Assembly (NCBI RefSeq): GCF_013155125.1
Contig: NZ_CP053564.1
Coordinates: 1,557,501 to 1,621,500, forward strand
DNA length: 64,000 nt
Direction: 5' to 3'
From: Pseudonocardia broussonetiae
GTDB taxonomy: Bacteria > Actinomycetota > Actinomycetes > Mycobacteriales > Pseudonocardiaceae
This document shows, one piece after another, positions 15,004 to 41,237 of this stretch. A model generated the notes under the pieces. That model did not search any database. It had not been told where the DNA came from and worked only from the letters and a program-made list of their open reading frames with translations. How positions within the stretch are numbered: the stretch's first letter is position 1; every line of letters begins with the position of its first letter. The translations under genes and the position numbers were made by a program.

Positions 15004-15858
15004 TCAGCGGTGGGTCGACCGCCGGAAGCGGTCGATCACGTGACGCACAGTCGGATCATCTGCGGAGGGCCAATTCACGTCGCCGATGCAACTCACCGGG
15101 CGCACCTCGCTGAGCGTCCCGCAGAGCAGCGCGGCGTCGAAATTGGGAAGCTCGGCGGGGTGCACGTCACGTTCCACCAAGGTGATGTCGGCGGCGCGTG
15201 CCTGGTCGATGAGTAGCGCCCTGGTCAGGCCAGGAAAGACGTCGCCATCGAGGCGGGGCGTGACCAACGTGCGGTCGGCCACGAAGAACAGGTTTGAGGA
15301 ACTCGCCTCGCAGATCAGGCCGGCCGAGTTGAGCATCACGCCCGTGTCGAAACCGGCGCGTCGCGCCTCCCGCTCGCACAGGTAGCTGTTGGCGTAGGCA
15401 CCCGACACCTTCCAGGTGACATCGATCGCCGTGTGCCGCACCCGTTCGACCGAGGAGAGCTGGCAACGGACGGCGCCATCGACGTCGCGTGTAATGGGGA
15501 CGGCGAACATGCACGCGCTCGTCGACTCGACATCGACGGAGAAGAACACCTCCGGTGCGGTGCGATAGGCTATCGGCCGGATGTAATGCGTACGGCGCGG
15601 CAAGGTGTCGAGCAATAGGTGGACACCGTCGAGGAGTTCCTCGACTCCCCAGGGAAGTGCGAGGTCCATCCGCGCTGCTCCCCGGTGGAACCGCTCCATG
15701 TGCTCCCGCATCAGGTGCTGATGCCAGTGGTCGTCGTTCCAGTAGGCGACGCATCCGTCGAAGACCGCAATGCCGAGGTGCAGTGTGTTGCTAGCAACCG
15801 ACGGGTCAGCGCTGTGGTGAGGCACTACCTGGCCATTGAACCATGCACGTTCGCTCAT
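15004..15858 (-). CDS. Class IV PLP aminotransferase, BCAT-like
   Basis: A 284-residue fold-type IV aminotransferase from ATG 15858 (MSERAWFNGQ). The PLP lysine is in DVTWKVSGAYANSYL at about residue 160; YIRPIAYR and LICEASSSNLF are BCAT-like landmarks, and LLCGTLSEVRPV matches the C-terminal BCAT motif. Class IV also includes aminodeoxychorismate lyase (PabC), which would give p-aminobenzoate, but the YIRP and CGT-EV motifs favour an aminotransferase. With the Pap-type genes nearby it may aminate 4-aminophenylpyruvate or a derived keto acid (inference). It is divergent from the papC-like gene with a 93-bp gap. Confidence 0.8.
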   Translation of the reverse strand: MSERAWFNGQVVPHHSADPSVASNTLHLGIAVFDGCVAYWNDDHWHQHLMREHMERFHRGAARMDLALPWGVEELLDGVHLLLDTLPRRTHYIRPIAYRTAPEVFFSVDVESTSACMFAVPITRDVDGAVRCQLSSVERVRHTAIDVTWKVSGAYANSYLCEREARRAGFDTGVMLNSAGLICEASSSNLFFVADRTLVTPRLDGDVFPGLTRALLIDQARAADITLVERDVHPAELPNFDAALLCGTLSEVRPVSCIGDVNWPSADDPTVRHVIDRFRRSTHR

Positions 15859-15951
15859 CTTCACAGTTGGTCTCCACCTCGTCGGCCGGGTTGGGTCGTC
15901 GGCCCCGCGGCCGGGTGCCGCAGGCCGGACAATCGGGCACAATTCCCGAAC

Positions 15952-16905
15952 ATGACACACAGTTTCGGCAACGCTGTCGTTATTGGCTCGGGAGCGGTCG
16001 GGGAGATGTTTGCCGGGCTGCTCGCCGCCGACGGCGTCCGCGTGCGCTCGTTCGACCGCCGCACCGGCACCGATGCCAACGACCCCCCGACCGGCGAGTA
16101 CGGAAGTGCCCTGGCCGGTTCCGGGCTAGTGGTGCTCGCCCTGCCGGAGTCGGTGACCCGCCAGGCGCTGCAGCACGTGCTGACGACCGCGTCGAGGGCC
16201 CTCGTCGTCGACACGACGTCGGTCAAGATGGCGATTGCACCGGTGTGGGCGGGGGTCGTCGGACGGCCGCCGGTCCTCAGTGTCAACCCGATGTTCGCCC
16301 CTAGCCTGGCGCCGGCCGGGCGGCCGTGCCTGGTCGTCGACCCTGACGGCGGGCCGGCGGGCCGCCGGTTCGTTGCGCTGCTCGCCAGATGGGGGCTGCG
16401 CGTCATAGAAGTTCGAGACGTCCTTGAGCACGACCGCCTCTGTGCGGCCGTCCAGGCCGGTGTGCACGCAGCGGTGCTGGCCCTCGGCGCGGTGCTCGCC
16501 GCCTCGCCGCTGTCCGTGGACGACGTCTGGGCCCTGGCCCCGCCGCCGTGCCGTGTCATGCTGCTCCTGCTAGCCAGAATCAGCAACGGGGCGCCCGAGG
16601 TCTACGAAGACATCCAGGTGCGCAACACATTCGCGGCCGACTCCCGCGAAGGACTTGCCGCGGCGCTCGCCCACCTGAACCAGGAGCTGCGCCTGTCGGG
16701 CGGCATGCCCACCACCCTGGCCAATATCGCGGCGTGGCTGGGCGAGCGCCGCGACCCGCTGGGCAACGACTGCCGACGCATGTTCGAAGACCTCGCCGCG
16801 TCGACCACGCCCGACGCCGTGGGAGGCACGCAACCCGTCCAGGACCGCGGAGCCGTCCCCGGCGAGCCGGACGGGCAGGCCAGGCCCAGCTCGTCGGACA
16901 CATAA
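15952..16905 (+). CDS. papC: PapC-type prephenate dehydrogenase homologue (4-amino-4-deoxyprephenate dehydrogenase)
   Basis: A 317-residue NAD-dependent enzyme from ATG 15952 (MTHSFGNAVVIGSGAVG). The Rossmann loop is VIGSGAVGEMFAGLL at residues 8-22. The prephenate dehydrogenase fold is seen in VVDTTSVKMAIAP and VLSVNPMFAPSLAPAGRP, where primary-metabolism enzymes have a G-HPM motif. The C-terminal helical dimerisation part has HAAVLALGAVLA and SREGLAAALAHLNQEL. In chloramphenicol and pristinamycin pathways PapC oxidises aminodeoxyprephenate to 4-aminophenylpyruvate. The assignment to the amino rather than hydroxy series depends on the papA gene in the same cluster. The last ~35 residues are polar and probably disordered. 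Confidence 0.8.
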   Translation: MTHSFGNAVVIGSGAVGEMFAGLLAADGVRVRSFDRRTGTDANDPPTGEYGSALAGSGLVVLALPESVTRQALQHVLTTASRALVVDTTSVKMAIAPVWAGVVGRPPVLSVNPMFAPSLAPAGRPCLVVDPDGGPAGRRFVALLARWGLRVIEVRDVLEHDRLCAAVQAGVHAAVLALGAVLAASPLSVDDVWALAPPPCRVMLLLLARISNGAPEVYEDIQVRNTFAADSREGLAAALAHLNQELRLSGGMPTTLANIAAWLGERRDPLGNDCRRMFEDLAASTTPDAVGGTQPVQDRGAVPGEPDGQARPSSSDT

Positions 16906-16988
16906 CTGCAGCGGTCAACGGCGGCATTGTCGATGACATCGCAGTTTTCTTGCCAGGTGGCGTCGGTCGGACCCGCCGGAGCGCTGGT

Positions 16989-18002
16989 TCAGCGGGCACA
17001 GGAGCGGTGCGACGACGAGTCGGCAGGGTCGGCGAGCGCGGCGTCGATCGCGCGCAATGTCGCGGCGTCGAGCTGCGTCGGGAGCTCCGCGGCAGCGAGG
17101 AGCGTGCTGAGTTGTGCGCCGGACGACGCGCCGCACAGGGCGGTGTCGACCTGCGGATTGCGCAGGACCCACGATAGCGCCATGGACACGGGATGGCGCC
17201 CGGTCTCGCGAGCCAGCGCGGTGAGGCGACGGATCCGGGTGAGGGCGGCCTGCTCATCATCGCCGAGCGCCGTGTGCCGCAGCCACTGCAGCTCCGGCTG
17301 GCACAGCCGGGCGTCGGTAGGCATCCCGTCGTCGTAGCGGCCGGCCAGCAGTCCGTAGAGCAGCGGGGACCAGGTCATCAGGCCGAGCCCGAGGTCGCGC
17401 TGGACCTCGGCGAAGTCGCCCTCGACCCGATCTCTGACAACCATGTTGTACTGGCGCTGCTCGACGACCGGCGCCACCCCTCCACCGGAGGCGGCGATCT
17501 CGTGCGCGGCCCGGATCTGCTCGGGCTCCCATTCCGAGGTGCCCCAGTACAGCACCTTTCCCTGGCGGACCAGGTCCGACATCGCCGTCACGGTCTCCGC
17601 CAGCGGGACATCGGGGTCGAAGCGGTGGCACAGGAACAGGTCCAGGTAGTCCACGCCGAGGCTGCGCAGGGAGCGCTCACACCCGTCACGCACATGCTTG
17701 CGACTCAGCCCCCACGTGCCGGGTCGTCGCTGGTGCACACCCCAGAACACCTTCGCGCACACCGCGAAGGTCTCGCGGTCCCAGCCCAGGCGGGTCAGCA
17801 GCCTCCCGAACGCGCGCTCCCCGCTTCCCGCGGCGTAGGTCTCGGCGTGGTCGAACAGGTTCACCCCGGCCTCATGGGCGCGGTGCAGCAGGACGAGCGC
17901 CTCGTCGTCGGCGAGCCGGTCACCGATGGTGGTCCACGCGCCCAGTGACACCGCGGAGACCTCCAGGCCCGTGCCGCCCAGCCGGCGGTGGGAGATGCTC
18001 AT
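16989..18002 (-). CDS. Aldo/keto reductase
   Basis: A 337-residue (alpha/beta)8 NADPH-dependent oxidoreductase from ATG 18002. The catalytic tetrad is visible: Asp in NLFDHAETYAAG, Tyr in the same motif, Lys in CAKVFWGVHQ and His in LFLCHRFDPDVP. It resembles the potassium-channel beta-subunit-like group (SLGVDYLDLFLCH; MTWSPLLYGLLAGRY). It lies between papC (convergent, 83-bp gap) and the mutase-dioxygenase gene (48 bp upstream). Its substrate may be a keto or aldehyde intermediate of the arylamine branch, or the aldehyde released by the terminal NRPS reductase. Neither is shown by sequence. Confidence 0.85.
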   Translation of the reverse strand: MSISHRRLGGTGLEVSAVSLGAWTTIGDRLADDEALVLLHRAHEAGVNLFDHAETYAAGSGERAFGRLLTRLGWDRETFAVCAKVFWGVHQRRPGTWGLSRKHVRDGCERSLRSLGVDYLDLFLCHRFDPDVPLAETVTAMSDLVRQGKVLYWGTSEWEPEQIRAAHEIAASGGGVAPVVEQRQYNMVVRDRVEGDFAEVQRDLGLGLMTWSPLLYGLLAGRYDDGMPTDARLCQPELQWLRHTALGDDEQAALTRIRRLTALARETGRHPVSMALSWVLRNPQVDTALCGASSGAQLSTLLAAAELPTQLDAATLRAIDAALADPADSSSHRSCAR

Positions 18003-18050
18003 ACTGGTCCCCTCAGACCAAGGCGGCCTCGGGTCCTGCCGGCTCGGGAT

Positions 18051-18884
18051 TCACCAGACGTTCTCCCGTTCCATGGACTCGAACAGCTCGCGGACGTTGT
18101 CGTCCTCGAAGCCGGTGGCGCCACCCGTGCGGCTGATGAATTCCAGCTGCAGGCCGGTGGCGGTGCTGCGCCGGGTGAAGGTTTGGTCAAGGCCCGGGGC
18201 GTGGATGATCCCCGTCAGCAGGTCGGCCTGGGCGACGCGCAGATCCGTCAGCAGGGCTGTGTGGTCACCGACCGCCAGCGCCACGTGCTGCACCCCCTGT
18301 CCGCGGTGGGCGATGTACTGGCTGACGTTGGACCGCTCCGAGGTGCCCTGGCACACCACGAAGGTGGCCCCGCCGGCTCGCATGGTCGCCGACACCATGC
18401 CGCTGTACTCGCCTTCGACCGAGCGGCGCTCGATGACCTCGAAGCCATAGTGGTCGCGCAGCTCGGCCACCGCCGTCTCCAGGTCCTCGACCGCGATCGC
18501 GATATGGTCGATGGCCTGGATCTGGGAGTGCCGGGTGGCGTCCGTCGCGAGTGGTTCGTCACCGTCGATGATCGCAGCCTCCAGCCGGCACGACTCCTCG
18601 GTGATCACGCTGACGATCTGGTGCACGAACGACTCGCTCAGCCCAGCGGCTCGTCCCTGGGCCAGCATCCGGTCGCGGACGTGGGCGAGCCGATTGGGCT
18701 GCATCATGGAGACCCCCGAGGCGGCCTTGACCTCGGCGATCTCCGCACAGACCCGCATCCGCTCGGCGAGCACGCGCACCAGCTCACCATCGAGCTCGTC
18801 GATGCGCTCACGTGCCCTCTCCAGCTCGGGCGCCCCCGGCGCGTCACCGCCCGCGTCGGCCTGCCGGTCTCGGTCTTGTGTCAT
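18051..18884 (-). CDS. Chorismate-mutase-like (PapB-type) domain fused to a catalytic HPPD/HmaS-like VOC domain
   Basis: A 277-residue protein from ATG 18884; AGGAGG lies six bases upstream. Residues ~20-105 are an AroQ chorismate-mutase helical domain (RARERIDELDGELVRVLAER, then EIAEVKAASG), the type used as aminodeoxychorismate mutase in Pap pathways. Residues ~123-260 are one VOC domain with the three expected iron ligands of 4-hydroxyphenylpyruvate dioxygenase and hydroxymandelate synthase: His127 (AIDHIAIAV), His200 (GVQHVALAV) and Glu248 (LQLEFISR). Ordinary members of that family have an extra N-terminal VOC half, which the mutase domain replaces here. It would rearrange aminodeoxychorismate and then oxidise the aminophenylpyruvate made by PapC, possibly to an aminomandelate or aminohomogentisate analogue. 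The outcome is not readable. Confidence 0.8.
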   Translation of the reverse strand: MTQDRDRQADAGGDAPGAPELERARERIDELDGELVRVLAERMRVCAEIAEVKAASGVSMMQPNRLAHVRDRMLAQGRAAGLSESFVHQIVSVITEESCRLEAAIIDGDEPLATDATRHSQIQAIDHIAIAVEDLETAVAELRDHYGFEVIERRSVEGEYSGMVSATMRAGGATFVVCQGTSERSNVSQYIAHRGQGVQHVALAVGDHTALLTDLRVAQADLLTGIIHAPGLDQTFTRRSTATGLQLEFISRTGGATGFEDDNVRELFESMERENVW

Positions 18885-18973
18885 GTCATTCCTCCTGAGG
18901 TCCGCGGAGTGAGGGCTCCGCGCGGTGTCCGCCGCGCTCGGGCCCGTACGAGCAGCCCGTTGCGGGGGCGTCG

Positions 18974-21151
18974 TCACACAGCGATCTCGTGCTTGCCCGG
19001 TGGGTGTGCCACCGGCGGCGTGCACAGCCCCTGATCTGGGCCGGGGGGCTGCGCGGTCACGCGCACCGCGGCCATCGGAACCTCGGCCTTGAGTTGCATC
19101 TCCGCCACCTCCTCGCCGGCGTCGGAGAGTGCGACGACCGCACCGCCCGCCCCGACGCTGACGTCCTCACCGCGGACGACCAGCGTGCGGATAACAATGC
19201 TCAGGTCGACAGATCCGGTCAGTGAGAAGTAGCCCAGCGCCCCGGAGTAGACGCCGCGCCCGCCGCGCTCGAGCCGGTCGATGATCTGCATCGTCCGGAT
19301 CTTGGGTGCGCCCGTCATCGACCCCCCCGGAAACGCCGCGCGCACGCAGTCGACGGGCGAGACGTCCTCACGCAGCCGCGCACGCACCGTGCTGACAAGC
19401 TGGTGCACTGTCGCGTAGGTCTCGACGGCGAAGGCCGTGGGAACGTGGACGGAACCGATCGCGGCGACTTTCCCGAGGTCGTTGCGCAACAGGTCGACGA
19501 TCATGAGGTTCTCGGAGCGGTCCTTCTCCGCGGTGCCGAGCTCTGCGGCCAGTCGCGCGTCCTCGACGGGTGTCCGCCCCCGCCGCCGGGTGCCCTTGAT
19601 CGGCTTGGCCTCCACCTCCCGGTCCGCGGAGATCGTGAGGAACCGTTCGGGGGACGCGCTGAGCACGTCGACGCCGGGCAGGTGCAACAGCGCGCCGTAG
19701 GGCACCGGGCTGCGCCGCCGCAGCTCCCGATAGGTGGTGACCGGATCGATTCGTGCGCGCGCCGTCATCGTGGTGGTCAGGCACACCTCGTAGGTCTCAC
19801 CCTCCCGGATCTCGGCGAGGCAGTGCCCGATCAGCTCGCGGTACTCCTCGGGTGAGTCCCGAGCGGTGAAGGGCACCGGTACCTCCGGGGTCGGCGCCGC
19901 GACCCCGGCGGCCCCGGCCACGGGGGCGGCGAGTACGGCGCAGGCTGCCTCGGCCAGCCACGAACGGCCCGCGAGCTCGGTGTCCTCGTCGACGAGGGTG
20001 AGCAGCCATGTCCGACCGAGCAGGTGGTCGATGATCACGGCACGGTCGCAGTAGAGGAACGCCGCATCAGGCAGGTCTGAGGCATGCACGAGGTCGCCGC
20101 CGCACTCGGCCTTGAGCTCGTAGCCGAGGTAGCCGACGTACCCGAGCGCGAAGCCGCACCCACTCGGCGGCCCCTCGACCGCACGCGCTGCGGTCTCCCG
20201 CGCCAGGTAGTCGAATATGCTCTCCTCCAGGTGGGCCTCGGCGCCCGTGGCCGTCTGGACCCGCACGCCGCGGTTGGCTATCGCTGTCACCCACTCACCC
20301 AGGGGACCGCGACCTCCGAGGATGGAGTGCCGCGACAGGCCCGCGACGACGGCGGAGCTGTCCAGCCAGAAGGCGCAGTCGCCGGCGGCGAACAGCGCGG
20401 TGTACACCGCCTCGGCCGCCGGGTGATGTTCCAGCTGGTGGCTGAGCAAACGATGTCGCCGCTTCACAGGTCGCTCGGTCCGTCCGGCGGGGCGGGCCGG
20501 GATGCCCTGTGCCGGCCTGCTCGCAGCCGGCCTGCTCGTGCCCCGGGCGTCGAACCGCCGCGGTGTCCGACGCGCAAGCCCCAGAAAGTTCTCGATGAGC
20601 AGGCGGCCGTGCTCAGTGGAGATCGACTCCGGATGGAACTGCACGCCCCACTGTGGTCGGGTGCGGTGCGCGACGGCCATCACCACCGGCGTGCCGGCCC
20701 GGTCCGCGGACCGCCCGGTGATCCGCAGGCAGTCCGGGACGTCGTGCACCACCAGCGAGTGGTAGCGGACCGCCTCGAAGGGTGAGGGAATCCCCGTGAA
20801 GATTCCGGATCCGTCGTGCGAGACCGTGCTGACCCGGCCGTGCATGGGCTCGGCGCCCCGACCCACTGTGCCGCCCTCGAAATGACACAGCCCCTGATGT
20901 CCGAGACACACACCGAGCAGTGGGAGATCAGTCTGCAGGGCCAGCCTGCTGATTCCGAAGTCGCTCTCCACGTCAGGACGTCCCGGACCGGGGGACAGAA
21001 TAATCGCCTCGACCGGTTCGGTCTTCAGTGCTTCCCACGATGCCCGGTCGTCATTCTTGATGACATCGACGCGATTGCCGGAAACCTCGGCTGCCAGCTG
21101 ATAGAGATTAAATGTGAACGAGTCATAGTTGTCAATTATCAGGATCGTCAT
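18974..21151 (-). CDS. papA: Fused aminodeoxychorismate synthase (PabA-PabB type, PapA)
   Basis: A 725-residue two-part enzyme making 4-amino-4-deoxychorismate from chorismate and glutamine. Residues ~1-195 are a class I glutamine amidotransferase: IIDNYDSFTFNLYQ, nucleophile Cys in LLGVCLGHQGL, and WGVQFHPESIST. After a Pro/Arg-rich linker, residues ~230-690 are the chorismate-binding part with VEAKPIKGTRRRG, AAFPGGSMTGAPKIRTM and GVYSGALGYF. The lysine in PIKGT marks aminodeoxychorismate synthase; anthranilate synthases have PIAGT. The linker is longer than in housekeeping versions. It lies 89 bp upstream of the mutase-dioxygenase gene, probably in one operon with it. Confidence 0.92.
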   Translation of the reverse strand: MTILIIDNYDSFTFNLYQLAAEVSGNRVDVIKNDDRASWEALKTEPVEAIILSPGPGRPDVESDFGISRLALQTDLPLLGVCLGHQGLCHFEGGTVGRGAEPMHGRVSTVSHDGSGIFTGIPSPFEAVRYHSLVVHDVPDCLRITGRSADRAGTPVVMAVAHRTRPQWGVQFHPESISTEHGRLLIENFLGLARRTPRRFDARGTSRPAASRPAQGIPARPAGRTERPVKRRHRLLSHQLEHHPAAEAVYTALFAAGDCAFWLDSSAVVAGLSRHSILGGRGPLGEWVTAIANRGVRVQTATGAEAHLEESIFDYLARETAARAVEGPPSGCGFALGYVGYLGYELKAECGGDLVHASDLPDAAFLYCDRAVIIDHLLGRTWLLTLVDEDTELAGRSWLAEAACAVLAAPVAGAAGVAAPTPEVPVPFTARDSPEEYRELIGHCLAEIREGETYEVCLTTTMTARARIDPVTTYRELRRRSPVPYGALLHLPGVDVLSASPERFLTISADREVEAKPIKGTRRRGRTPVEDARLAAELGTAEKDRSENLMIVDLLRNDLGKVAAIGSVHVPTAFAVETYATVHQLVSTVRARLREDVSPVDCVRAAFPGGSMTGAPKIRTMQIIDRLERGGRGVYSGALGYFSLTGSVDLSIVIRTLVVRGEDVSVGAGGAVVALSDAGEEVAEMQLKAEVPMAAVRVTAQPPGPDQGLCTPPVAHPPGKHEIAV

Positions 21152-21261
21152 GAAGGCTCTTCTCGCAACACAGACTCTTCTCTCGCCCGTCCCGGATGTG
21201 AGCCTATCCTTTCAGGTCTTCTGAGCAAATGATGCAGTATGCTCGTCGGCCTGTCAACCGT

Positions 21262-21490: not shown

Positions 21491-22312
21491 ATGAACACGG
21501 TCGGCCACGACCGGAGCACCTCTTGTCAACCCCCGTTCGAGGTGTCGGCCTGCTTCCCGTTCGCCGTGCCGGAGCACGTCGACCCGCACCATCGACTTGA
21601 GGCGCTGTACCGCACGTGGTGTCGGCGGGTCTCGTTCGACAACGCCATGCGGGTGCTGGCCCTGCGAGCCGGCCTCGATGATCTTCCGGGGAGCGAACCG
21701 GACGACTTCTGGGCCGCATGGGCGATGACAGGGTGTGGCGGCATGTGCGTCGCCACCGCACGGGCTTTGGGTGTGCTACTCACCGCGCACGGTTTCACGT
21801 GGCGCCACGCCCTGGCCCGGATCGACGACGCGCGGGAACCCGACCATCTCTCCACGATCGTCACGCTGCCCACCGGGCGATTCCTGCTCGACACGGTTGC
21901 GCTGGGCGAGGTGCCGGTGCTGCTCGACACCGGGCCCCACCGGGTCGGCCACAGCGCTCTCGAGGTGCGGTCACGGCCCACGGCGGACGGGTGGGAGATT
22001 CAGTGGTCGACACCGGTGAACCGGGCCGTACAGCGCTGCCACGTCCTTCCGGCGCTGCCGCTGCCCGACCTCGTCGGATTCTACCGGAGCACGCAGGAAT
22101 CCGAGACGTTCCAGCGGTTCAACGCGATGCTCTACGCCCGCCGAAACACCGACGACGGGCCGGTGGTCGTGATTGGGGGTTTCGCCGTGCGGGTGGACGG
22201 CGACGGGACCGTCGAGCCGATCGAGCAATCCGCTCCGGACGTGCTGATAACCCTTTTCGGTTGGTCCGAACGGATCGTCACGAGGCTGGAGCAGGCCGGG
22301 GTCTTCGGATGA
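21491..22312 (+). CDS. Arylamine N-acyltransferase-like protein
   Basis: A 273-residue protein from ATG 21491 with the arylamine N-acetyltransferase fold pattern. The nucleophilic Cys is in GCGGMCVATARALGVLL at about residue 82 (family motif RGGxC), His in PDHLSTIVTL at about 118 and Asp in RFLLDTVAL at about 133, so the Cys-His-Asp triad is complete. Family members include acetyl-CoA-dependent NATs and RifF-type amide synthases that join an arylamine to a carrier-bound acyl chain. It sits directly before a carrier protein (19-bp gap) and an FkbH-type gene, in a cluster that makes an arylamine. Carrier-dependent acylation of the amine is therefore likely (inference). Confidence 0.7.
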   Translation: MNTVGHDRSTSCQPPFEVSACFPFAVPEHVDPHHRLEALYRTWCRRVSFDNAMRVLALRAGLDDLPGSEPDDFWAAWAMTGCGGMCVATARALGVLLTAHGFTWRHALARIDDAREPDHLSTIVTLPTGRFLLDTVALGEVPVLLDTGPHRVGHSALEVRSRPTADGWEIQWSTPVNRAVQRCHVLPALPLPDLVGFYRSTQESETFQRFNAMLYARRNTDDGPVVVIGGFAVRVDGDGTVEPIEQSAPDVLITLFGWSERIVTRLEQAGVFG

Positions 22313-22331: not shown

Positions 22332-22601
22332 ATGAATGGTGAAACGCAACCGTTCCTTGAAGAGATTCTCGTCGCGTATGCAGCCGTCCTCCTAGCGGAG
22401 GACATCCACCCGCGGGCCACGTTCGCCGATCTCGGTGGCACCTCGCTGACCGCCGCGATCGTCCTGGCCCGGCTCTGGCGTGTCCTGGGTGTCCGGCTGG
22501 CCCTGACCGACCTCGGCGCCGGGGTCACCGCCGCCGAGCTCGCGGCTCTCGTGGCCGAGCGGGCCGGGGGGCCGCCGGCCGACCGTTCGGTGACACGATG
22601 A
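22332..22601 (+). CDS. Stand-alone acyl/peptidyl carrier protein
   Basis: An 89-residue carrier protein from ATG 22332. The phosphopantetheine serine is in FADLGGTSLTAAIVLARLW at about residue 37. The GGTSL form is PCP-like. It overlaps the FkbH-type gene by 4 bp (ATGA), so the two are coupled. The most likely cargo is the acyl group loaded by the FkbH-type partner. Confidence 0.85.
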   Translation: MNGETQPFLEEILVAYAAVLLAEDIHPRATFADLGGTSLTAAIVLARLWRVLGVRLALTDLGAGVTAAELAALVAERAGGPPADRSVTR

Positions 22602-24190
22602 GCGAGCGAGTCGTAGTGCTCTGCACCTTCACCGCCGAGCCCCTGGTCGCCGGCCTCCGGCGGGCGTTCGAGGGGCAGGGCGTGCGGTGGGACGTCGAGG
22701 CCGGCCCCTACGGGCAGGTTGTCGAGCCGCTCAAGAGACCCTGCGCCGACGACGTCGTGGCGGTCGTGCTGGTGGTGCGGATCGCGGACCTCCTACGCCG
22801 GATGTGGGTCGACACCCACGGCGGGGAGACGGCGCACTACGACACCGAGCCGGACCCGCAGGCGACCCGCCGGGCCGAGGAGTGGGTGCACGACCTGGTC
22901 GCCGGGGTGGCCACGTGGCGCGCGACGGCGTCCGCGCCGCTGCTGCTCAGCGTGCTCGACGACGCGCGGACACCGGGCCCCCGCAGCCTCTGTGAGCGGT
23001 TGGCCACCGCCGCGCGCGACGGCGCCGCCGAGAGCGGTGTCCTCGTCGTCGAGGCAGGCGAGCTGGAGGGCGAACCGTTCCTCGACACACTGGCCCACGT
23101 GCCCTACCAGCCTGCGGGGCTGGCAGAGCTGGCGGCTCGCCTGGCCCGCCGGTGCTGGCTGCAGGTACGACCGTCGGTGAAGGTGCTCGTGTTCGACGGG
23201 GACGGAACGCTGTGGGGTGGATCGGCCGCGGAGGACGGTCCCGCGGGTGTCGACCGTGGGGGTCCCTACGCCCGGATCGGCCTGCTGGCTCTGCAGCAGC
23301 GGGCGTCCGGACGGCTGCTGTGCCTGGCGAGTCACAACGTCGAACTCGACGTGCTCGACGTGCTCGCAGCGCCCCCGTCCGGGGGTGGGCTGCGGGCCGA
23401 GCACCTGAGTGCTCGACGGGTCGGTTGGCAACCCAAGGACCGCATGCTCGTCGAGCTCGCCGGCGAGTTGGGACTCGGCCTGGACACCTTCGTGTTCCTC
23501 GACGACAACGATGTGCAGCGTGCGCTGGTCAGGAGTGCGCTGCCGCAGGTCGCCGTACCCGACTTCACGTCGGGCGGCGGGTTGGTCACGCTGCTGGGCA
23601 CCTCCTGGCTGTTCGAGCGGTCGCACACCACGCCCGAGGACCGGACGCGGGCGGGCAGCTACGAGGACGAGCGCCGCCGCCGTGCCGCGCGCGCCGCGGC
23701 GCCGAGCCACCTCGACTACGTCGCGTCGCTGCAGGTCGAGGTGACGGCACGTCCCCTCGACGCATCCGCATGGCCGCGTGCGCGCCAACTCCTGGCCCGC
23801 ACCAACCAGTTCGCCCACGTCGTCCCCGGCTTCCGGCTCCCAGCGGGTTCGGACCGGGCCGACCCGGACCGCCGGACATGGATCGTGCAGGTGAAGGACC
23901 GGATCGGCGACTACGGTCGCGTCGGTCTGGTCGCCGACCGGGTCGTGGGCGACACGCTGTGGATCGAGGCCCTGCTCCTGAGCTGCCGGGTGCTCGGCCG
24001 CGGGGTGGAGGAGGAGATGGTCGAGGTCATCCTGCGGGACGCGCGGGCGGCGAAGATTGCCACTGTGCGCATGGACCTGGTGCGCACCCCCCGCAACGCC
24101 CCCCTACAGAACTTCGTCACGCGCCTCGGCGGGCAGCTGACCGGCTCCGGATCCGGTCTCGTCAGCCTCCACCTCCCGGTGCGGCTGTGA
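22598..24190 (+). CDS. FkbH-type HAD acyl-loading enzyme
   Basis: A 530-residue protein from ATG 22598. The HAD-IIIC domain starts near residue 195: motif I is KVLVFDGDGTLWGG, followed by ASHNVELDVLDVL, RRVGWQPKDRMLVELA and DTFVFLDDNDVQRALV. A GNAT-like C-terminal domain follows (VKDRIGDYGRVGLVADRVV; LLSCRVLGRGVEEEMV). FkbH proteins such as OzmB and FkbH take 1,3-bisphosphoglycerate, remove phosphate and load a glyceryl group on an ACP. The usual DLDNT and SKN motifs read DGDGT and SHN here, a slight divergence. Pairing with a carrier and a NAT-like enzyme instead of a dehydrogenase set is unusual. Confidence 0.85.
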   Translation: MSERVVVLCTFTAEPLVAGLRRAFEGQGVRWDVEAGPYGQVVEPLKRPCADDVVAVVLVVRIADLLRRMWVDTHGGETAHYDTEPDPQATRRAEEWVHDLVAGVATWRATASAPLLLSVLDDARTPGPRSLCERLATAARDGAAESGVLVVEAGELEGEPFLDTLAHVPYQPAGLAELAARLARRCWLQVRPSVKVLVFDGDGTLWGGSAAEDGPAGVDRGGPYARIGLLALQQRASGRLLCLASHNVELDVLDVLAAPPSGGGLRAEHLSARRVGWQPKDRMLVELAGELGLGLDTFVFLDDNDVQRALVRSALPQVAVPDFTSGGGLVTLLGTSWLFERSHTTPEDRTRAGSYEDERRRRAARAAAPSHLDYVASLQVEVTARPLDASAWPRARQLLARTNQFAHVVPGFRLPAGSDRADPDRRTWIVQVKDRIGDYGRVGLVADRVVGDTLWIEALLLSCRVLGRGVEEEMVEVILRDARAAKIATVRMDLVRTPRNAPLQNFVTRLGGQLTGSGSGLVSLHLPVRL

Positions 24191-24220
24191 TCACCGAGTA
24201 TCGATCGGCGGCCGGTGTGT

Positions 24221-33446: not shown

Positions 33447-34636
33447 GACGTCCCCCTGGTGGGGCCACGAGACTCCGTCACGTGGTGAATCCGGACAAGC
33501 CGCCGCAGGCCTTCGTCCAGCTGTTCGCCTCCGACGTTCAAAGCGATCCGATAGTGGGAGCTGTCATGAAACAGTTCGGAAGGTAAGATCAGAACTCCCT
33601 CCGCCGCAGCCGCCTCGGCGAACTCACTGTCGGTCAAACCGAGGGGACAACGTACATAGACAAACGCGGTGGCCGTCGCGTCGACAACGTCGGCGCCGCC
33701 CGACCTCAGCAACTGACGAGCACGGTCCTGATCCGCGGCCAGGCTGCCCATGGCTGGACGGTGGCCCGCCAGTTCGGCCATGACCTGCTGCATGACGACG
33801 GTCGGGGCGCACGCGCCGTTCGCGCGGAGTGCGCGGACCGCGTCGCGCTGGACCGATTCTCGCTGCTGGAAACGTGGTGATATCGCGAGGTAACCGGTGC
33901 GTTGACCCTGTAGGGACCAAGCCTTGCCGAGTGAGTAGAAACTCACGACGTTGTCATAGAAGTGAACCGGGCTGACGAACTCGCCGGCCCACGTCTGGTC
34001 GCGATGCACCTCGTCGCTGAACAAGATCGGCATTCGACCGTCCCGGCGGCCCACGTCCACCAGAGCCTCGGCGAGGGACGCGAGCTCCGCGGCTCCGAGC
34101 ATCACACCCGTCGGGCAGTTCGGCTGGCTGAGGATCACCGCACGGGTTCGCGGACCCCACGCCCGGGTGAGCGCGGCCAGGTCAGGCGATCCTCCCGCGT
34201 ACCGGACGAATTGCCAGCCCACGCCCAGCTGGCGCAGGTAGAGGGGGTAGTCCATCCACCCGGGTGTGAGGACGAGCGCCTCGTCACCCGGCTCGAGCAG
34301 CGCCGCGAAGCCGGTGGCCAGCGCCGCGGCCCCGCCCGGCGTGAAAACAATGTCACGGTAGTTATAGGGCACACACGTCATCTGCGACAATACTCCCGCG
34401 ACCTTCCGCCGTAAGATCGTCGAGCCGCCGAGAGGCGTGTACTGCAGTTCATCCGCCGTGAGGCGGCCGGCTACCGCGCCGAGCAGATCGACCGCGCGTC
34501 CGTCTCGTCGGACACGCGGATTCGGAAAGGAAAGGTCGATCGCATGCGAGCCATGCCGCCGGAGGGTGGCCGCATGGAGGCTGGTGAACTGCTCGAGTGG
34601 GCGCAGCAGTGGCTCAAGTCCGCGTTTTTCCGACAT
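33443..34636 (-). CDS. Class I/II PLP aminotransferase
   Basis: About 397 residues if started at ATG 34636 (MSEKRGLEPLL). A GTG at 34702 gives 22 more and no ribosome binding site clearly decides. The fold-type I landmarks are FTPGGAAALATGFAALL, ILSQPNCPTGVML, DEVHRDQTW and the PLP lysine in FYSLGKAWSLQGQRTGYLA. It heads a four-gene leftward operon (aminotransferase-ACP-NRPS-monooxygenase) in which each junction is a 4-bp overlap or less. It may supply a nonstandard amino acid to the NRPS, such as the residue chosen by the second A domain or an aryl amino acid. Confidence 0.85.
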   Translation of the reverse strand: MSEKRGLEPLLRPLEQFTSLHAATLRRHGSHAIDLSFPNPRVRRDGRAVDLLGAVAGRLTADELQYTPLGGSTILRRKVAGVLSQMTCVPYNYRDIVFTPGGAAALATGFAALLEPGDEALVLTPGWMDYPLYLRQLGVGWQFVRYAGGSPDLAALTRAWGPRTRAVILSQPNCPTGVMLGAAELASLAEALVDVGRRDGRMPILFSDEVHRDQTWAGEFVSPVHFYDNVVSFYSLGKAWSLQGQRTGYLAISPRFQQRESVQRDAVRALRANGACAPTVVMQQVMAELAGHRPAMGSLAADQDRARQLLRSGGADVVDATATAFVYVRCPLGLTDSEFAEAAAAEGVLILPSELFHDSSHYRIALNVGGEQLDEGLRRLVRIHHVTESRGPTRGTS

Positions 34637-34935
34637 GCTGCGGCGCTGCGATCCGGACACCTCGTCGGTGGAGCTCAGTTCGCCCGCCCTCCCACCCTGC
34701 ACCCATTTTAGACGTTTGTCTCGTGATCAGGAACTGCGCGCCGGCCGCGCAACAACCCTGCGCCGCTGACGCCCGGGCTAGGGGTATCGGGCCCACTTAT
34801 GAAGTGTAGGACAGACACCGAGCTTCAACAATCCCACTCGGGCGCCGAATTTTGCACCACTTGCCCTCGGGTCGAGCTCCATCCATGATGGGCCTGATCC
34901 GGGCTGGGAGAGGCCGAGCAGCGGGGGAGGTCGTT

Positions 34936-37900
34936 GTGACGCTGGAAGATGATCTCGCGGATCAGTACCTGGAACGGATCCTCGCTGGCCGCCGCGCCGC
35001 GGCCGACGAATCCAGCGATGTCCGGCGTGGAGCCGTCACTTCGGCACAGGCGCGGATGTTCTTTTTGGACAAGGTCGAGGCAGACCCCAGCCGATACCAC
35101 GTCGCCGAGACGTTCCGCGTGCATGGCGCCCTCGACCGGCGTGCCCTCGAACGGTCCCTCGCCGTGCTGGTAGGCCGGCACAGCAGCCTGCGGTCCGGTT
35201 TCACCGACGGTGCTGGCCTGCGCCGGGCTGTGGTGGACGACGCCGTGGTCATGATCGAGGATCTACAGGTTGCGGACACATCCGACGAGACCGCGGTCGA
35301 GGCAGCTCTACTCGGTTTCTTCCGGCGGCCTTTCGATCTTGCGGTGCCTCCGCTCGCCCGTGCCGCACTGTTGCACATCACCGAGCGCGACCATCTGCTG
35401 TGCATGGTTTACCACCACATTATCTGTGACGGCTCCGCCATTGGTGTTCTGAATCGGGAACTGGGACTCGTGTACTCAGCACTTGCCCGGGACGGAAGAC
35501 CACCGGTGTTGCCGCCGGCAGTCGATCCCGACGTCCTGCCCGCCCGGGAACACGCCTATCTCCGTTCGCCTGCCGCCACCGAGGCTCTCGCCTGGTGGGA
35601 GCATCAACTGCGTGGAAGCGCGAGTGCTCCACTGCCGCTCGTCCGGCAGTTGAGTCCTTCGGACGGACCTTCCGCATCGAGCACCGTGCACCTCTCCGCC
35701 GAGACGACGGCGGCGCTGGAGCTGCTGGCGGCTCAGCGACGCACGTCGCTGTACGCGGTCATCTGCGCGAGCGTGGCGGCATGGGTCATCCGGTGTACCG
35801 GCGAGACCGATCTGACCTTCGGCGCGCCCGCGGCCAACCGCACCTCCGCCGACGTGGTCGATCTTGTTGCTCTCACTGTCAACACCATCGCCCTCCGCAT
35901 GAGATGTGCCGAGGTGACCACGTTCGCCGAACTCGTCGAACTCGCTCGCGATACGGTGTCGTCCGGCTTGGACCACCAGAGCATGCCGTTCGAACGCGTG
36001 GTGGAGAGGCTGGCGCCCGACCGTCACGTCGACCTCAACCCATTGTTCCAGATCATGGTTGCCCACCAGAACGTCGACGCACCACTTCCCCAGTTCCCGG
36101 ACGCCACGGTGGAACGGGGCACAAACATCAGCGGAGCGGTACACGTCGATCTCGAGGTGACTACCTGGCGGCGCCCGACCGGCCTGGAGGTTCGGGTGGG
36201 CGGCCATCCCCGCCACTACGACGACGCCACCATCGGTCGGATCATCCGCCAGCTCACGATCCTGTTGGATCACGTGTCCCAACATCCGGAAAGCCTTCTG
36301 GAAGAACTCCCGATCATGCCGCCGGACGAGATTGGAATCATCGCCGGCTGGGAACACGGGCCGGCCGCCGAAGTTGGCGACGCACGCACCGTACCCGCCA
36401 TGTTCACCGCTGCTGCGCGCGTTTATTCGAGCCGGCCGGCCCTCGAAACCTCGGCCGGCAGCGCCTCGTTCGGCGAGTTGGCTGAAATGGCCGACAAGGT
36501 GACTCGACAGCTGACCGGGATGGCTGGGCCAACGCGCATCACGGCTGTCGCCCTGCAGCGTGACATTCCGCTCGTGGCAACGATCCTCGGCATCATGGGC
36601 ACAGGATCCGCGGTTCTGGCGCTCAACCTGCAGGATCCGCCCGCACGTCGTCGACACGTGTTGGAGGACGCCGGGTGCCAGTTGGTGGTGACCGACGACG
36701 TCGACGTGGCGTGGCTGCCCGCCGGCGTCACCGGAATACCGTTCTCGTCCCTCAACGGCGACCAGCCGATCCCCGTTTCGGACGACGCGCGAGTTCCCTC
36801 TCGAGCACCTGTGCCGGAGAACGTCGCCTACGTCATGTACACGTCCGGCTCGAGTGGCCGGCCGAAAGCTGTCCTGGTCGAGCACCGGAACATCGTCAAC
36901 ACACTCTCGGCCTGCGTACGCGCAGAGGATCTGCATGAGGGGGACCTCGGGCTCGTCCTAGCGGCCCACACCTTCGACGTCTTCTATCACGAGCTCTTCA
37001 CTCCGATGTTGTCCGGCGCCTGCGTGTACCTGGTGACTCCGCAGGAACTGTTCGACCATGACGCCATGCTCGGCCTCCTGCAGCGCGCGTCGAGTTTACA
37101 GGCGGTGCCTGGTCTGATGGAGCAGATCATGCAGATCACCGCCGCGCACGGCGCCGGGGTCAACCACAGCCTGCGGCGGCTCATGACCGGCGGCGACACG
37201 GTTCCGCCAGCTCTGCTCAAGGCCATGCGGAAGACTTTCCCCCGGGCGAGGATCTCCATCACCTACGGACCGACGGAAGCGGCGATATTTTGTACTCGCT
37301 ATAACGTTCCGGACACCGGAGAGGTTACCGGGAACCCGCTCGGGCGCCCGCTCCCCGGAGCCTCGATCCGGGTCGCGAACGCCCGCGGAGAGCGTGTACC
37401 GGTCGGGGCCGAGGGGGAAATCTGGATCGGCGGAAACGGGGTCGGTCGTGGCTATCTGAATCGTCCGTCCGAGCACGCCGCGTCCTTCGTCGAACGCGCT
37501 GGGATGCGCTTTTATCGCACAGGCGACCGAGCGCGGTGGCGCACCACCGGCGACCTGGAATTCCTCGGCCGCCGAGATACCCAGGTCAAGGTACGCGGTG
37601 CCCGGATAGAACTCACGGAGATAGCGGCGTTGGCGGCCGGCGCGGCCGGGGTCGGGCAGAGTGTGGTCGTGCCGACCGGGACGACCCTCGCCGAACAGCG
37701 TCTCCTCCTGTATGTGACCCCCGCGGTCGGTGCCATGAGCGGCGAGACCGACGGTCGGCGCGTCGAGAACTGGCGGCACGTTTTCGACGATGCCTACGGC
37801 GGGCGTGTACGTAGCGTCCGGGGTGGCCTCGACTTCACCGGTTGGAGGAGCAGCTTCAGCGGGACGTCGATCGATCTGGACGTCATGCGCGACTGGCTTT

Positions 37901-40524
37901 CCGGGACCGTCCGGCAGATCCGGCGCTGCCTCCCGACCACCGGTCCCTCCACGATCCTCGAGATCGGCTGCGGCACCGGACTCGTGCTCCTGTCCTTGGC
38001 TCCCGAAGTACTGCGATACGTCGGTACCGACGTGTCCCGGAGAGCAATCTTCGATCTGCGTAAACGGGTGCAGGCGGCGGGGCTCTCCCAGGTCGAGCTT
38101 GCGACGGGCTCGGCGCTGGGGACACTCACGGCGGCCAGCGACGAATACGACGTCATAGTGATCAATTCGGTCGTGCAGTACTTCCCGGGACCTGGGTACC
38201 TGACCGAGGTCCTCGATGCGTGTACGGGCACGATCGCAGATGACGGCTGCATCTTCGTTGGAGATGTTCGCGATGTCACCCGGTTGACGGATTTCCACCT
38301 GGCGGTCGGTCGGGCCCGCGGCCTGGATGGTGCCCGGCTACGGGAGTTCGTCGAGGACGCCTCCCACGCGGAAGACGAGCTGCTGCTGGCACCGGCGTGG
38401 TTCGAGCAGTACGCCCGCCGCCGTCCGCGGATCACCGACGTGGAGATCATGCCGCGGCTGGATCACCACGCCACCGAGATGAGCCGGTTCCGGTACGACG
38501 TCGTGCTGCGTACCGGCCCCGGCACCGCGCAGGTCGACGTACGTCCGATGGAGGAGATCCGAGCGGCCGACATCCGCGGTGGGATGGGCGGTGTGCGGTC
38601 GCTGCTCGACACCGACCCCGGGCCGGTCGCCATCCGGTCGGTGGCAACCCCGTTCGAGCCGCACGCGGACGGCGAGGCGACCGGGCTGATCGCCAGCGCC
38701 GCCGAGATCGACGATCTTGCACACGACCTCGGCTGGACCGCGACCTTCGACATGCGCAGGACGGCTGACGAAGGGGATTTCGATGTCCTGCTTCGTCCTC
38801 GGGCGGTGTCCGGTGACGTTCGGCCCACGGTGACGAACACCGTTGGTCAGAAATGGCGGCGTGCCCGCCCAGTTCCCGGTGTGCTGTCGAATGATCCGGC
38901 TCGCCGGCTACAGGACCGCGATCTGGAACGAACGGTCCGAGAACATCTGTTGCGCCACCTTCCGAGCTATATGGTTCCGGCAACTGTCATCGTGCTGCCG
39001 AAATTCCCTCTGACACCGAACAACAAGGTGGACCGTGCCGCGCTCCCGCCGCCACGACCATCGAGGGCGTCAGTCGTGCTTCGCGAGCCAGCAGGCGACG
39101 AGATTCCTGTCGCCGCGGCCTGGACGGAAACCCTGGGGCACCAGAACTTCTCGGTGACGGACGACTTCTTCGACATCGGTGGCACCTCGCTGGCCGCGAT
39201 TCAGCTCGCTGTTGCCCTGCGCTCTCGTGGCTTGTCGTTGACACCGCAGCAGGTCTTCGAGTTCCGTACCGTGGCCACGATGGCTGTGGCGGTGTCGGCC
39301 GACTACGGGTCACCCGAGTCCGCGCCGCCGGATACCGCTGATGATCACGACGTGGCGCCGCTGCTGGCGCTCTCCGACACATCCATGGGTGCTCCGCGTC
39401 CGCTCATCGACGGACGGCGGATCCTGCTCACCGGAGCCACCGGAATGCTCGGTATTCACATCCTCCACGCGCTGCTGTCGCGGACGACCGCCGACATCGT
39501 CTGCCTGGTCCGCGCCGCCGGGCCGGACAGCGGACTCGCCCGGATCCTGGACCAGTACGGCTGGTATTTTCCCACCGCCGATATCGGCGTGCTCCGGAGC
39601 AGGGTCGCCGCGTGCGCTGCCGATCTGTGCAGCGACAACCTGACTGTGGCACTCCACGCGCAGCACCCAGGGACCCGCTTCGATCACGTCTTGCACTGCG
39701 CAGCAGACGTGAGGCATGTAGCGGACCGGAATGAGGTCATGGCGGCGAACGTCGACGGCACCCGTAGGGTCGTCGATCTGGTTCAGGGCCTCGGACCGGT
39801 GTCTCTTCACCATATTTCGACGGTGGGAGTAGCCGGCTGGGTACCGCGGGATGCAGCGGTGACAGTGCTCGATGAGGACTCGCTGGACATCGGACAACGC
39901 CCGACCGAAGTGTACTCGGAGTCGAAGATCATCGCTGAAGGAGTCGTGCGCAAGCACTTCGCCGCTGGCTGGGAAGGCAGCGTACTGCGAGTCGGTACGG
40001 TCGCCCCGAATTCCAGGACCGGACACTTTCAGCGGGACATCCAGGCCCATTTTCTCAGTCGCCACCTCCGTTCGATTCTCATGCTGGGGATTACCTCCAC
40101 CTGGCCGGGCCGCGACCTCAGGCTCATACCCGCCGATCTCATGGCGACAGCCGTGCTCGAACTCGCAAGTTCACATGCGGGTCGCTCCAAGAATACTTTC
40201 CACCTCGAAGGCACGGAACCGCTGAGTCACGGGCGGCTGGCCACAATACTGACCGACCTCGGATACAATCTACGTGTCGTACCGCCCGGTGAGTTCCCAG
40301 CCGAAATGGACCGGTTGATTTCTGGTGGAGCAGACCGCGATCTGGTGGGTGGCCTGCTCCCGCAGATCAACCGACACTCCGGGGTTGCCGTGACCCTGGA
40401 CTCCCGGCGGTCCCGGGCAGCCGCCGCGGAGCTCGGGCTGGTTCTCGGTGCGTCCGGGACCGCCTACGTCCGGTCCTTCATCCAAGACGGGCTCAGTCGC
40501 GGCTTCTTCCCCCCACCCAGCTGA
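34936..40524 (+). CDS. Terminal NRPS C-A-MT-PCP-reductase
   Basis: A 1862-residue synthetase. GTG 34936 is chosen because GGGGGAGG lies five bases upstream; the frame is open further back. C has HHIICDGS at ~159. A has YTSGSSGRPK near 634 and FDVFYHE; its contact code D-V-H-Q-M-G-T-I-F is not one I can assign. A methyltransferase (LEIGCGTGLVLLS near 1007; VVQYFPGPGYL) is inserted between A8 and A10, as in N-methylating NRPSs. A10 is TPNNKVDRA. PCP has DIGGTSL near 1412. The C-terminal thioester reductase has LLTGATGMLGIH near 1498 and the YSESK catalytic pair near 1659. Release should give an aldehyde or alcohol of an N-methylated residue. It diverges from the aminotransferase operon. Confidence 0.92.
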   Translation: MTLEDDLADQYLERILAGRRAAADESSDVRRGAVTSAQARMFFLDKVEADPSRYHVAETFRVHGALDRRALERSLAVLVGRHSSLRSGFTDGAGLRRAVVDDAVVMIEDLQVADTSDETAVEAALLGFFRRPFDLAVPPLARAALLHITERDHLLCMVYHHIICDGSAIGVLNRELGLVYSALARDGRPPVLPPAVDPDVLPAREHAYLRSPAATEALAWWEHQLRGSASAPLPLVRQLSPSDGPSASSTVHLSAETTAALELLAAQRRTSLYAVICASVAAWVIRCTGETDLTFGAPAANRTSADVVDLVALTVNTIALRMRCAEVTTFAELVELARDTVSSGLDHQSMPFERVVERLAPDRHVDLNPLFQIMVAHQNVDAPLPQFPDATVERGTNISGAVHVDLEVTTWRRPTGLEVRVGGHPRHYDDATIGRIIRQLTILLDHVSQHPESLLEELPIMPPDEIGIIAGWEHGPAAEVGDARTVPAMFTAAARVYSSRPALETSAGSASFGELAEMADKVTRQLTGMAGPTRITAVALQRDIPLVATILGIMGTGSAVLALNLQDPPARRRHVLEDAGCQLVVTDDVDVAWLPAGVTGIPFSSLNGDQPIPVSDDARVPSRAPVPENVAYVMYTSGSSGRPKAVLVEHRNIVNTLSACVRAEDLHEGDLGLVLAAHTFDVFYHELFTPMLSGACVYLVTPQELFDHDAMLGLLQRASSLQAVPGLMEQIMQITAAHGAGVNHSLRRLMTGGDTVPPALLKAMRKTFPRARISITYGPTEAAIFCTRYNVPDTGEVTGNPLGRPLPGASIRVANARGERVPVGAEGEIWIGGNGVGRGYLNRPSEHAASFVERAGMRFYRTGDRARWRTTGDLEFLGRRDTQVKVRGARIELTEIAALAAGAAGVGQSVVVPTGTTLAEQRLLLYVTPAVGAMSGETDGRRVENWRHVFDDAYGGRVRSVRGGLDFTGWRSSFSGTSIDLDVMRDWLSGTVRQIRRCLPTTGPSTILEIGCGTGLVLLSLAPEVLRYVGTDVSRRAIFDLRKRVQAAGLSQVELATGSALGTLTAASDEYDVIVINSVVQYFPGPGYLTEVLDACTGTIADDGCIFVGDVRDVTRLTDFHLAVGRARGLDGARLREFVEDASHAEDELLLAPAWFEQYARRRPRITDVEIMPRLDHHATEMSRFRYDVVLRTGPGTAQVDVRPMEEIRAADIRGGMGGVRSLLDTDPGPVAIRSVATPFEPHADGEATGLIASAAEIDDLAHDLGWTATFDMRRTADEGDFDVLLRPRAVSGDVRPTVTNTVGQKWRRARPVPGVLSNDPARRLQDRDLERTVREHLLRHLPSYMVPATVIVLPKFPLTPNNKVDRAALPPPRPSRASVVLREPAGDEIPVAAAWTETLGHQNFSVTDDFFDIGGTSLAAIQLAVALRSRGLSLTPQQVFEFRTVATMAVAVSADYGSPESAPPDTADDHDVAPLLALSDTSMGAPRPLIDGRRILLTGATGMLGIHILHALLSRTTADIVCLVRAAGPDSGLARILDQYGWYFPTADIGVLRSRVAACAADLCSDNLTVALHAQHPGTRFDHVLHCAADVRHVADRNEVMAANVDGTRRVVDLVQGLGPVSLHHISTVGVAGWVPRDAAVTVLDEDSLDIGQRPTEVYSESKIIAEGVVRKHFAAGWEGSVLRVGTVAPNSRTGHFQRDIQAHFLSRHLRSILMLGITSTWPGRDLRLIPADLMATAVLELASSHAGRSKNTFHLEGTEPLSHGRLATILTDLGYNLRVVPPGEFPAEMDRLISGGADRDLVGGLLPQINRHSGVAVTLDSRRSRAAAAELGLVLGASGTAYVRSFIQDGLSRGFFPPPS

Positions 40525-40583
40525 ACCCCACCCGCACTCGCGGCGCGGGTAACCCGGCGTTCCGGCACCGGGGGCGGGGCGCC

Positions 40584-41237
40584 TCACCGGTCCTTGACGA
40601 CGAGTCCCAGCGTCCGAGCCATCGTCGGCGCCAGCTCGGCGAGTTGCAGCGAGCTGACGACAGCGCCCTGCAATGACGTGATGCCGTCGGCGACATCGAG
40701 CACGGATGCCCCGCGGAGGTCGACCTTCTTCAACTGCACCCCGGCCATCCGCGCGCCACGCAGCTCGGAACCGGGCACCGTGACGTCGGTCAACGTCGCT
40801 CCGGCGAAGTCGACGTCCTGGAGCACGCAGTTGCGGAACGTCACCTCCTTCAGTCGCGCCCCGCGCAGGTTCACCGCGTCGAACCGGCAGTCGTGGAAGC
40901 TCACCCGCGTCAGCTCGGCGTTGAACATCTCCACGCCCGCCAGCGAACCCTGGGCGACCTCAGCGTCGAGCCATGACGACTCGGCGAAGCTCGCGCCCAC
41001 GAGCCGCACGTTGTTCATCCACACGTCGTTGAACCGGGTTCGGGAGTAGCGCCCACCGGTGAGGACGGCCTTGGTGAACGCGCACTCGGTGAACCGGGCA
41101 TTCCCCACTTCCCCGTCCTCGACCTCGAGATCGACGAAGTAAGCGGTGTCGTAGTCGGCGTGCTGCTCGAGGGTACCGACGAATCGACTGAGGTGGCGCG
41201 CATAGGGTAGATCGTCCAGCTCACGCGGCTTACTCAT
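40584..41237 (-). CDS. Pentapeptide-repeat protein, probable gyrase-protection protein
   Basis: A 217-residue protein from ATG 41237 (GGGAGA six bases upstream), 22 bp after the gyrB stop. From residue ~45 to ~185 it is a run of five-residue repeats with a central Leu/Phe, for example VNLRGARLKEVTFRNC and DVDFAGATLTDV. This pattern folds as a right-handed quadrilateral beta-helix. Qnr, MfpA, AlbG and McbG are pentapeptide proteins that protect DNA gyrase from inhibitors by mimicking DNA. Pentapeptide repeats alone do not prove this, but placement between gyrB and the biosynthetic cluster makes self-resistance the best reading. It is convergent with the terminal NRPS. Confidence 0.85.
   Translation of the reverse strand: MSKPRELDDLPYARHLSRFVGTLEQHADYDTAYFVDLEVEDGEVGNARFTECAFTKAVLTGGRYSRTRFNDVWMNNVRLVGASFAESSWLDAEVAQGSLAGVEMFNAELTRVSFHDCRFDAVNLRGARLKEVTFRNCVLQDVDFAGATLTDVTVPGSELRGARMAGVQLKKVDLRGASVLDVADGITSLQGAVVSSLQLAELAPTMARTLGLVVKDR

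Follow-up and report, generated by a model that had tools for sequence, protein, structure and literature searches.

Self-resistance by target modification is linked to the biosynthetic cluster in the case of aminocoumarins, whose clusters carry a resistant gyrB copy, a second gyrB that acts at the ATPase domain. In pathways of the chloramphenicol and pristinamycin type, PapA, chorismate-mutase and PapC-like steps lead to 4-aminophenylpyruvate. The speirobactin cluster of Photorhabdus, as described in the available part of its report (PMC12406682), combines in one operon the genes for a nonribosomal peptide synthetase (NRPS) product with a gene for a pentapeptide-repeat protein (PRP) that confers resistance, and the target of speirobactin is DNA gyrase. 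Likewise, albicidin is a peptide gyrase poison with a PRP, AlbG, as its protector (PMC9886550, in the part available). Here, we analyze a locus that shares features with these systems, situated between gyrB and gyrA of Pseudonocardia broussonetiae in a stretch of 64,000 nucleotides (contig NZ_CP053564.1, positions 1,557,501 to 1,621,500), which is referred to below as the window.

The window represents the replication-origin region, and its gyrB and gyrA are separated by a 26-kb interval of 14 genes. Family searches bore out the first-pass annotation, which had described this interval as NRPS and Pap genes plus a PRP gene; NRPS genes and a PRP gene thus share one cluster, as in gyrase-poison clusters of the speirobactin or albicidin kind. 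The annotation had also taken the flanking genes to be the producer's only origin-linked gyrase genes, used as resistance determinants. A second gyrase was looked for and not found: single gyrB and gyrA genes were the only matches at E ≤ 1e-3 in the 7.29-Mb, 4-contig genome. The explanation that we favor, with modest confidence, is that one tract carried a new gyrase-poison pathway, a PRP protector and resistant drug-binding parts of both gyrase subunits, and recombined within the essential gyrB and gyrA genes to yield a resistant hybrid in which the EGDSAGG motif contains Pro.

Mosaic Organization of the Gyrase Genes

GyrB and GyrA were aligned with their counterparts from 20 of 55 relatives within the genus, mostly those nearest by GyrA score. 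Codons 31-240 of gyrB and most of gyrA past about codon 180 matched the nearest Pseudonocardia, whereas the sequence was foreign from about codon 346 onward in gyrB and over about the first 150 codons of gyrA. Private substitutions at columns otherwise invariant among the 20 relatives numbered 20 in GyrB, all at residues 456-683, and 8 in GyrA, all at residues 6-142, and in none of the other aligned genomes did private changes cluster at both facing gyrase ends. The DNA identity of gyrB to that of the relative G023 was 92-100% over codons 61-240 (with only 1 of 201 residues different over codons 40-240) but 71-90% over codons 421-690, while that of gyrA was 76-90% over codons 1-150 and 96-100% over codons 271-832. 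In GyrB trees, residues 40-330 grouped beside G023, and residues 421-690 formed the longest terminal branch (0.130, the next being 0.053). The foreign part of GyrB is about as distant from members of the genus as other genera are; the best non-self match to residues 430-690 reached 86% among the 120 best matches listed (7,998 candidates scored).

Such a pattern could in principle arise without import, if the cluster had been inserted and selection for resistance had then driven rapid change at the facing ends of the resident gyrase genes, and the changes do flank the insertion on both sides, within the drug-binding parts. However, divergence at four-fold synonymous sites was 0.38-0.47 inside the foreign parts, which is about that seen between genera, and 0.10 outside them. 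As selection on residues does not yield divergence of this kind, we regard evolution in place as highly improbable. The shift in synonymous divergence was abrupt within both flanking genes, which the change of tree position supports. As judged from sequence comparisons, the mosaic import of the cluster together with parts of the gyrase genes is close to certain.

Crossovers were mapped by counting nucleotides present in none of the four nearest relatives. They fell near codons 285-345 of gyrB (about 42300-42480 of the window) and near codons 150-180 of gyrA (about 14160-14250). The DNA between these crossovers, about 28 kb long (about 14200 to about 42400), was probably acquired by homologous recombination, with the TOPRIM part of the donor's GyrB and the N-terminus of its GyrA. 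The cluster had been annotated as inserted exactly between gyrA and gyrB, but the exchange also took in portions of the two genes themselves, so that the tract reaches beyond the interval from 15004 to 41237. Since both gyrase genes are mosaic, a simple insertion of the cluster is excluded as the mechanism. Small patches farther out (gyrB 241-255 and gyrA 211-225) would be compatible with more than one recombination event.

The Imported Gyrase Parts and the Pentapeptide-Repeat Protein

The imported part of GyrB has the motif EGPSAGG instead of the EGDSAGG found elsewhere. Residue 476 is Pro, encoded by CCG (41905-41907), and all three bases of the codon are changed relative to the GAC of G023. 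Asp occupied this position in 139 of 139 other GyrB proteins (119 database proteins picked by similarity and the 20 relatives), as well as in all 51 readings of the locus from 50 other genomes; the 20 relatives are common to both counts. We take the position to be that of D429 in the gonococcal GyrB. By alignment to E. coli GyrB (6rks), it corresponds to E. coli D426. Asp426 and Lys447 of GyrB, together with Ser83 and Asp87 of GyrA, are named as residues involved in quinolone resistance in the legend of Fig. 1 of PMC9886550, and zoliflodacin resistance in gonococcus results from GyrB D429N, according to the available part of PMC13061509. At the sequence level, the imported GyrB is, then, altered at a residue known to affect drug sensitivity (D476P), the effect of Pro itself being predicted. 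The catalytic motif residues of the gyrase look intact by eye.

The imported N-terminus of GyrA is ordinary-looking: three residues between positions 12 and 150 were absent from 48 others, and Ser and Asp occupy the classical quinolone positions. In five genomes of the genus (G006, G022, G038, G052 and G053), matches to GyrA were interrupted near residue 132/133. The open frames concerned are long (735 to 1286 aa), and the pattern resembles that left by an intein; the window's GyrA has no such interruption.

The PRP gene starts 22 bp past the gyrB stop codon, on the same strand. In the structural model, its product is of the Qnr/AlbG/MfpA-like fold, a right-handed solenoid with C-terminal helices, although it missed the curated NCBIfam cutoffs for Qnr (42.0 of 240 bits) and MfpA (39.4 of 360 bits). 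Relatives of the PRP (41-49%) occurred in 9 of 149 other genomes of the family draw, in five of them on the gyrB contig but at least 375 kb off, and in four on another contig. The protein belongs to a broad actinobacterial family that is usually found away from gyrB and from this type of cluster, as would be expected if the PRP and the altered gyrase guarded against a gyrase poison of another organism or tuned supercoiling, the NRPS cluster being an unrelated neighbor. We consider this improbable, because the PRP, the altered gyrase parts and the cluster lie in one imported tract without other genes, of which the simplest unit is a toxin with its immunity.

The sequence of events that we propose starts from an unsampled actinobacterium which, by the simplest inference, already had this cluster between its own gyrB and gyrA. 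Crossovers inside the two genes would have brought the tract in by homologous recombination, in one event or several. The product would poison gyrase at the DNA gate, where the TOPRIM part of GyrB meets the N-terminal domain of GyrA. Immunity would have two parts. The poison would bind poorly to the imported GyrB, in which Pro replaces the equivalent of Asp426, together with the donor's GyrA N-terminus. In addition, the PRP, produced next to GyrB, would release complexes in which gyrase is trapped, a role that has been proposed for AlbG and MfpA. The only gyrase of the host would then be a hybrid, and biosynthesis and immunity would have moved together.

Predicted Product and Related Clusters

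The activities of PapA, PapB and PapC are encoded together, as a PabAB fusion, a chorismate-mutase domain and a PDH-like protein, PapC being assigned by weak family scores only. From what is known of these families, the PabAB fusion, the chorismate mutase and the PapC-like dehydrogenase are expected to yield 4-aminophenylpyruvate. The VOC domain fused to the chorismate mutase (CM-VOC) is a single domain, related to HPPD by sequence (TIGR01263, below cutoff); in the fold search, methylmalonyl-CoA epimerases ranked first, followed by 4-hydroxymandelate synthases. We take the code of the first adenylation domain, DVWHISLID, to specify Ser, and that of the third, DVHQMGTIF, presumably recalls arylglycine codes, so that a 4-aminophenylglycine-like unit is possible, if speculative. 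NRPS2 ends in MT-T-R domains, pointing to a methylated residue released as an aldehyde or alcohol. Judging from its domains, the cluster is predicted to make a modified tripeptide in which Ser and a second unit are joined to a third residue that is methylated and reductively released; PapA/B/C would supply a 4-amino-aryl building block. The FkbH-type protein, the free carrier protein, the AMP-forming ligase and the luciferase-like monooxygenase would decorate it.

The same NRPS core, with closely matching adenylation-domain residues, was found in Saccharothrix variisporea (G140) and Microvirga calopogonii (L032/G390). Both core clusters also have CM-VOC, the aldo-keto reductase, PapA, PapC and the class IV aminotransferase. 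An MFS gene and an APH gene lie near the Saccharothrix cluster, and oxygenases and oxidoreductases near that of Microvirga. These are at least two relatives among the matches listed, and more may exist. Whole-length CM-VOC matches occurred in 3 of 390 family genomes, namely its own, G140 and G258, and no full-length NRPS2 was among the matches listed for G258. No CM-VOC match at E ≤ 1e-15 was found in the 61 other genomes of the genus, and at E ≤ 1e-50 the only alignment among 394 genomes of the class came from its own genome. VOC relatives without chorismate mutase adjoin NRPS-like genes in Lysobacter-, Pseudoalteromonas-, Janthinobacterium- and Pelomonas-type genomes (L035-L059). A search of the open PMC literature, mostly of titles and abstract openings, found no description of this cluster or of any biosynthetic cluster between gyrA and gyrB.

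The gyrB–gyrA Interval in Other Genomes

The first-pass annotation had assumed that gyrB and gyrA are normally adjacent, which is true for the genus but not throughout the family. Among 62 Pseudonocardia genomes, including that of P. broussonetiae, both genes were on one contig in 56, and the gap was ≤128 bp in all 55 others, as compared to 26.6 kb here. In a 160-genome sample of the family, 143 genomes were measurable, including the one studied; the gap was ≤200 bp in 121 of the 142 others, between 200 and 1000 bp in 5, and >1 kb in 16, with a maximum of 10.2 kb. The open reading frames in the interval, inspected by eye in 12 of these 16, were methyltransferase-, transporter-, hydrolase-, regulator- and ESX-like. 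As judged in this way, the interval looks like a recurrent landing site in the family. Look-alike interval genes were seen in different family genomes (L264 of G267 and L259 of G379; L260, L261 and L266; L262 and L265), their types being a secreted hydrolase-like protein, a methyltransferase-like gene and another small protein.

Is Gyrase the Target?

The annotation had proposed that the product acts on gyrase. The imported D476P variant and the PRP gene next to gyrB argue for this, and we regard it as likely that the product is a gyrase poison. No relative free of the cluster was found with the same allele: all 20 aligned relatives have Asp476, and the genus search described above gave no CM-VOC match.

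Several observations weigh against such a target. As 16 of 142 family genomes have more than 1 kb at this place, the interval tolerates other genes and its occupation by itself proves little; location alone was dropped as evidence once this base rate had been measured, and the inserted genes looked ordinary by eye in the 12 genomes inspected. The imported part of GyrB was tested for accelerated amino-acid evolution, which was not found, its overall rate being ordinary. At sites strictly invariant among 49 family GyrB proteins, only six of its residues deviate, as many as in the lineage G365, D476P being the sole one of the six within the motif. The strongest point, as far as the core scaffold is concerned, is that the related core clusters have no link to gyrase: tblastn detected neither a PRP nor a gyrase gene in the Saccharothrix (55 kb) or Microvirga (48.8 kb) stretch, and the GyrB proteins of both species have the normal EGDSAGG. 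Altered GyrB was not found in any of the other holders of the core cluster or the CM-VOC gene (G140, G258 and G390). Either the activity on gyrase comes from the decorations present here, or the relatives are protected in another way, perhaps through the MFS and APH genes near the Saccharothrix cluster, or the link is incidental. A further type II topoisomerase B-like gene, with the motif EGDSALGSA, is present in the Saccharothrix genome G140 (L192); the genome studied here has no such second match.

The permissive interval, the two related core clusters and the ordinary rate of the imported GyrB part would all fit a cluster that had come to lie between the donor's gyrB and gyrA by chance and hitch-hiked, the conserved essential genes serving as mere homology arms, with Pro476 belonging to the donor background and the product having another target. 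We consider this rather unlikely, since Pro stands where all other compared sequences have Asp, at a known resistance residue, the PRP gene directly follows gyrB, and neither NRPS nor PRP genes were seen in the inserts of the 12 of 16 relatives inspected by eye, for which no family search was run.

Gene Content of the Window

The genes dnaA, dnaN, gnd, recF, dciA and gyrB are all on the (-) strand, and are followed by the cluster and then by gyrA, a DUF3566 protein gene and tRNA-Ile/Ala (Table 1). The GC content at third codon positions was 0.76-0.90 in the interval genes versus 0.91-0.98 in the flanking dciA, recF, gnd, dnaN, dnaA and DUF3566 genes. The two cluster ends have no 12-mers in common, and the family searches revealed neither a transporter nor a regulator among the 14 interval genes. 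Elsewhere in the window, a D-Ala-D-Ala-ligase-like protein of 560 aa is encoded at 55825-57507, near a parA-like gene at the origin, and genes for an amidase and for the alpha and beta subunits of nitrile hydratase are found at 3946-7393, some kilobases beyond gyrA.

Table 1. Features of the gyrB–gyrA locus, in window positions.
Feature	Position	Strand	Family evidence
gyrA, only copy; mostly like nearest Pseudonocardia from about codon 181	12196..14694	(-)	NCBIfam
Foreign 5' part of gyrA, about codons 1-150/180: N-terminal/winged-helix region including quinolone-resistance region; putative right-hand homology arm of import	14160..14694, borders approximate	(-)	
Class IV aminotransferase	15004..15858, start inferred	(-)	Aminotran_4, branched-chain-aminotransferase-like
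PapC-like prephenate/4-amino-4-deoxyprephenate dehydrogenase	15952..16905, start inferred	(+)	PDH_C above Pfam cutoff; bifunctional CM/PDH model below cutoff
Aldo-keto reductase	16989..18002	(-)	Aldo_ket_red
Chorismate mutase (PapB-like) fused to HPPD-like VOC domain	18051..18884, start inferred	(-)	
PabAB-type aminodeoxychorismate synthase (PapA)	18974..21151	(-)	GATase, Chorismate_bind; TIGR00553 above cutoff
Weakly arylamine-N-acetyltransferase-like protein	21491..22312, start uncertain	(+)	Acetyltransf_2 E 0.0012, below Pfam cutoff
Free carrier protein	22332..22601	(+)	PP-binding
FkbH-type HAD protein	22598..24190	(+)	TIGR01686 above cutoff
Free AMP-forming ligase	24215..25780	(+)	AMP-binding
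MupA/Atu3671-type luciferase-like monooxygenase	25775..26809	(-)	TIGR04020 above cutoff
NRPS1, C-A-T-C-A-T; A1 DVWHISLID, A2 VDATQSLAD	26806..33162	(-)	
Class I/II aminotransferase	33443..34702	(-)	Aminotran_1_2
NRPS2, C-A-MT-T-R, terminal thioester reductase; A3 DVHQMGTIF	34852..40524, true start within frame	(+)	
PRP	40584..41237	(-)	
Foreign 3' part of gyrB, TOPRIM part; from about codons 285-345, clear from codon 346; putative left-hand homology arm	41260..42400, border approximate	(-)	
gyrB, only copy	41260..43332	(-)	NCBIfam

Comparison with Known Systems

Resistance-guided genome mining usually seeks extra copies of target genes; here, the signal comes without an extra copy, as a recombination mosaic in a single essential target. 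If our explanation is true, a toxin cluster can spread along with its immunity by using essential target genes as homology arms, a producer can gain both in one step, and the locus provides a naturally occurring GyrB variant that is changed at a residue known for resistance. The product would then represent an uncharacterized family of gyrase-directed peptides, with relatives at least in Saccharothrix and Microvirga.

In contrast to the aminocoumarin clusters, this one carries no extra gyrase copy; recombination has instead made a hybrid of the single gyrase, with changes at the DNA gate. We take albicidin to be built from aryl-amine units, as is predicted here, but to be a hybrid polyketide-peptide, unlike the product of this cluster, and we know of no gyrase gene beside the albicidin cluster. 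Unlike pathways of the chloramphenicol and pristinamycin type, this one has a chorismate mutase with an HPPD-like VOC domain as its fusion partner, and a three-module NRPS with MT and R domains. Speirobactin, a chlorinated diketopiperazine, is made by two linear modules, the resistance changes described are in GyrA of the target organism, and the available part of the report mentions no gyrase gene in the cluster (PMC12406682); the present cluster differs in its Pap genes, its three modules, the reductive release of the product and an altered gyrase of its own. Target modification and PRP immunity are thus already known, and what is new is that both came in together with the cluster, leaving a recombinant hybrid as the sole gyrase.
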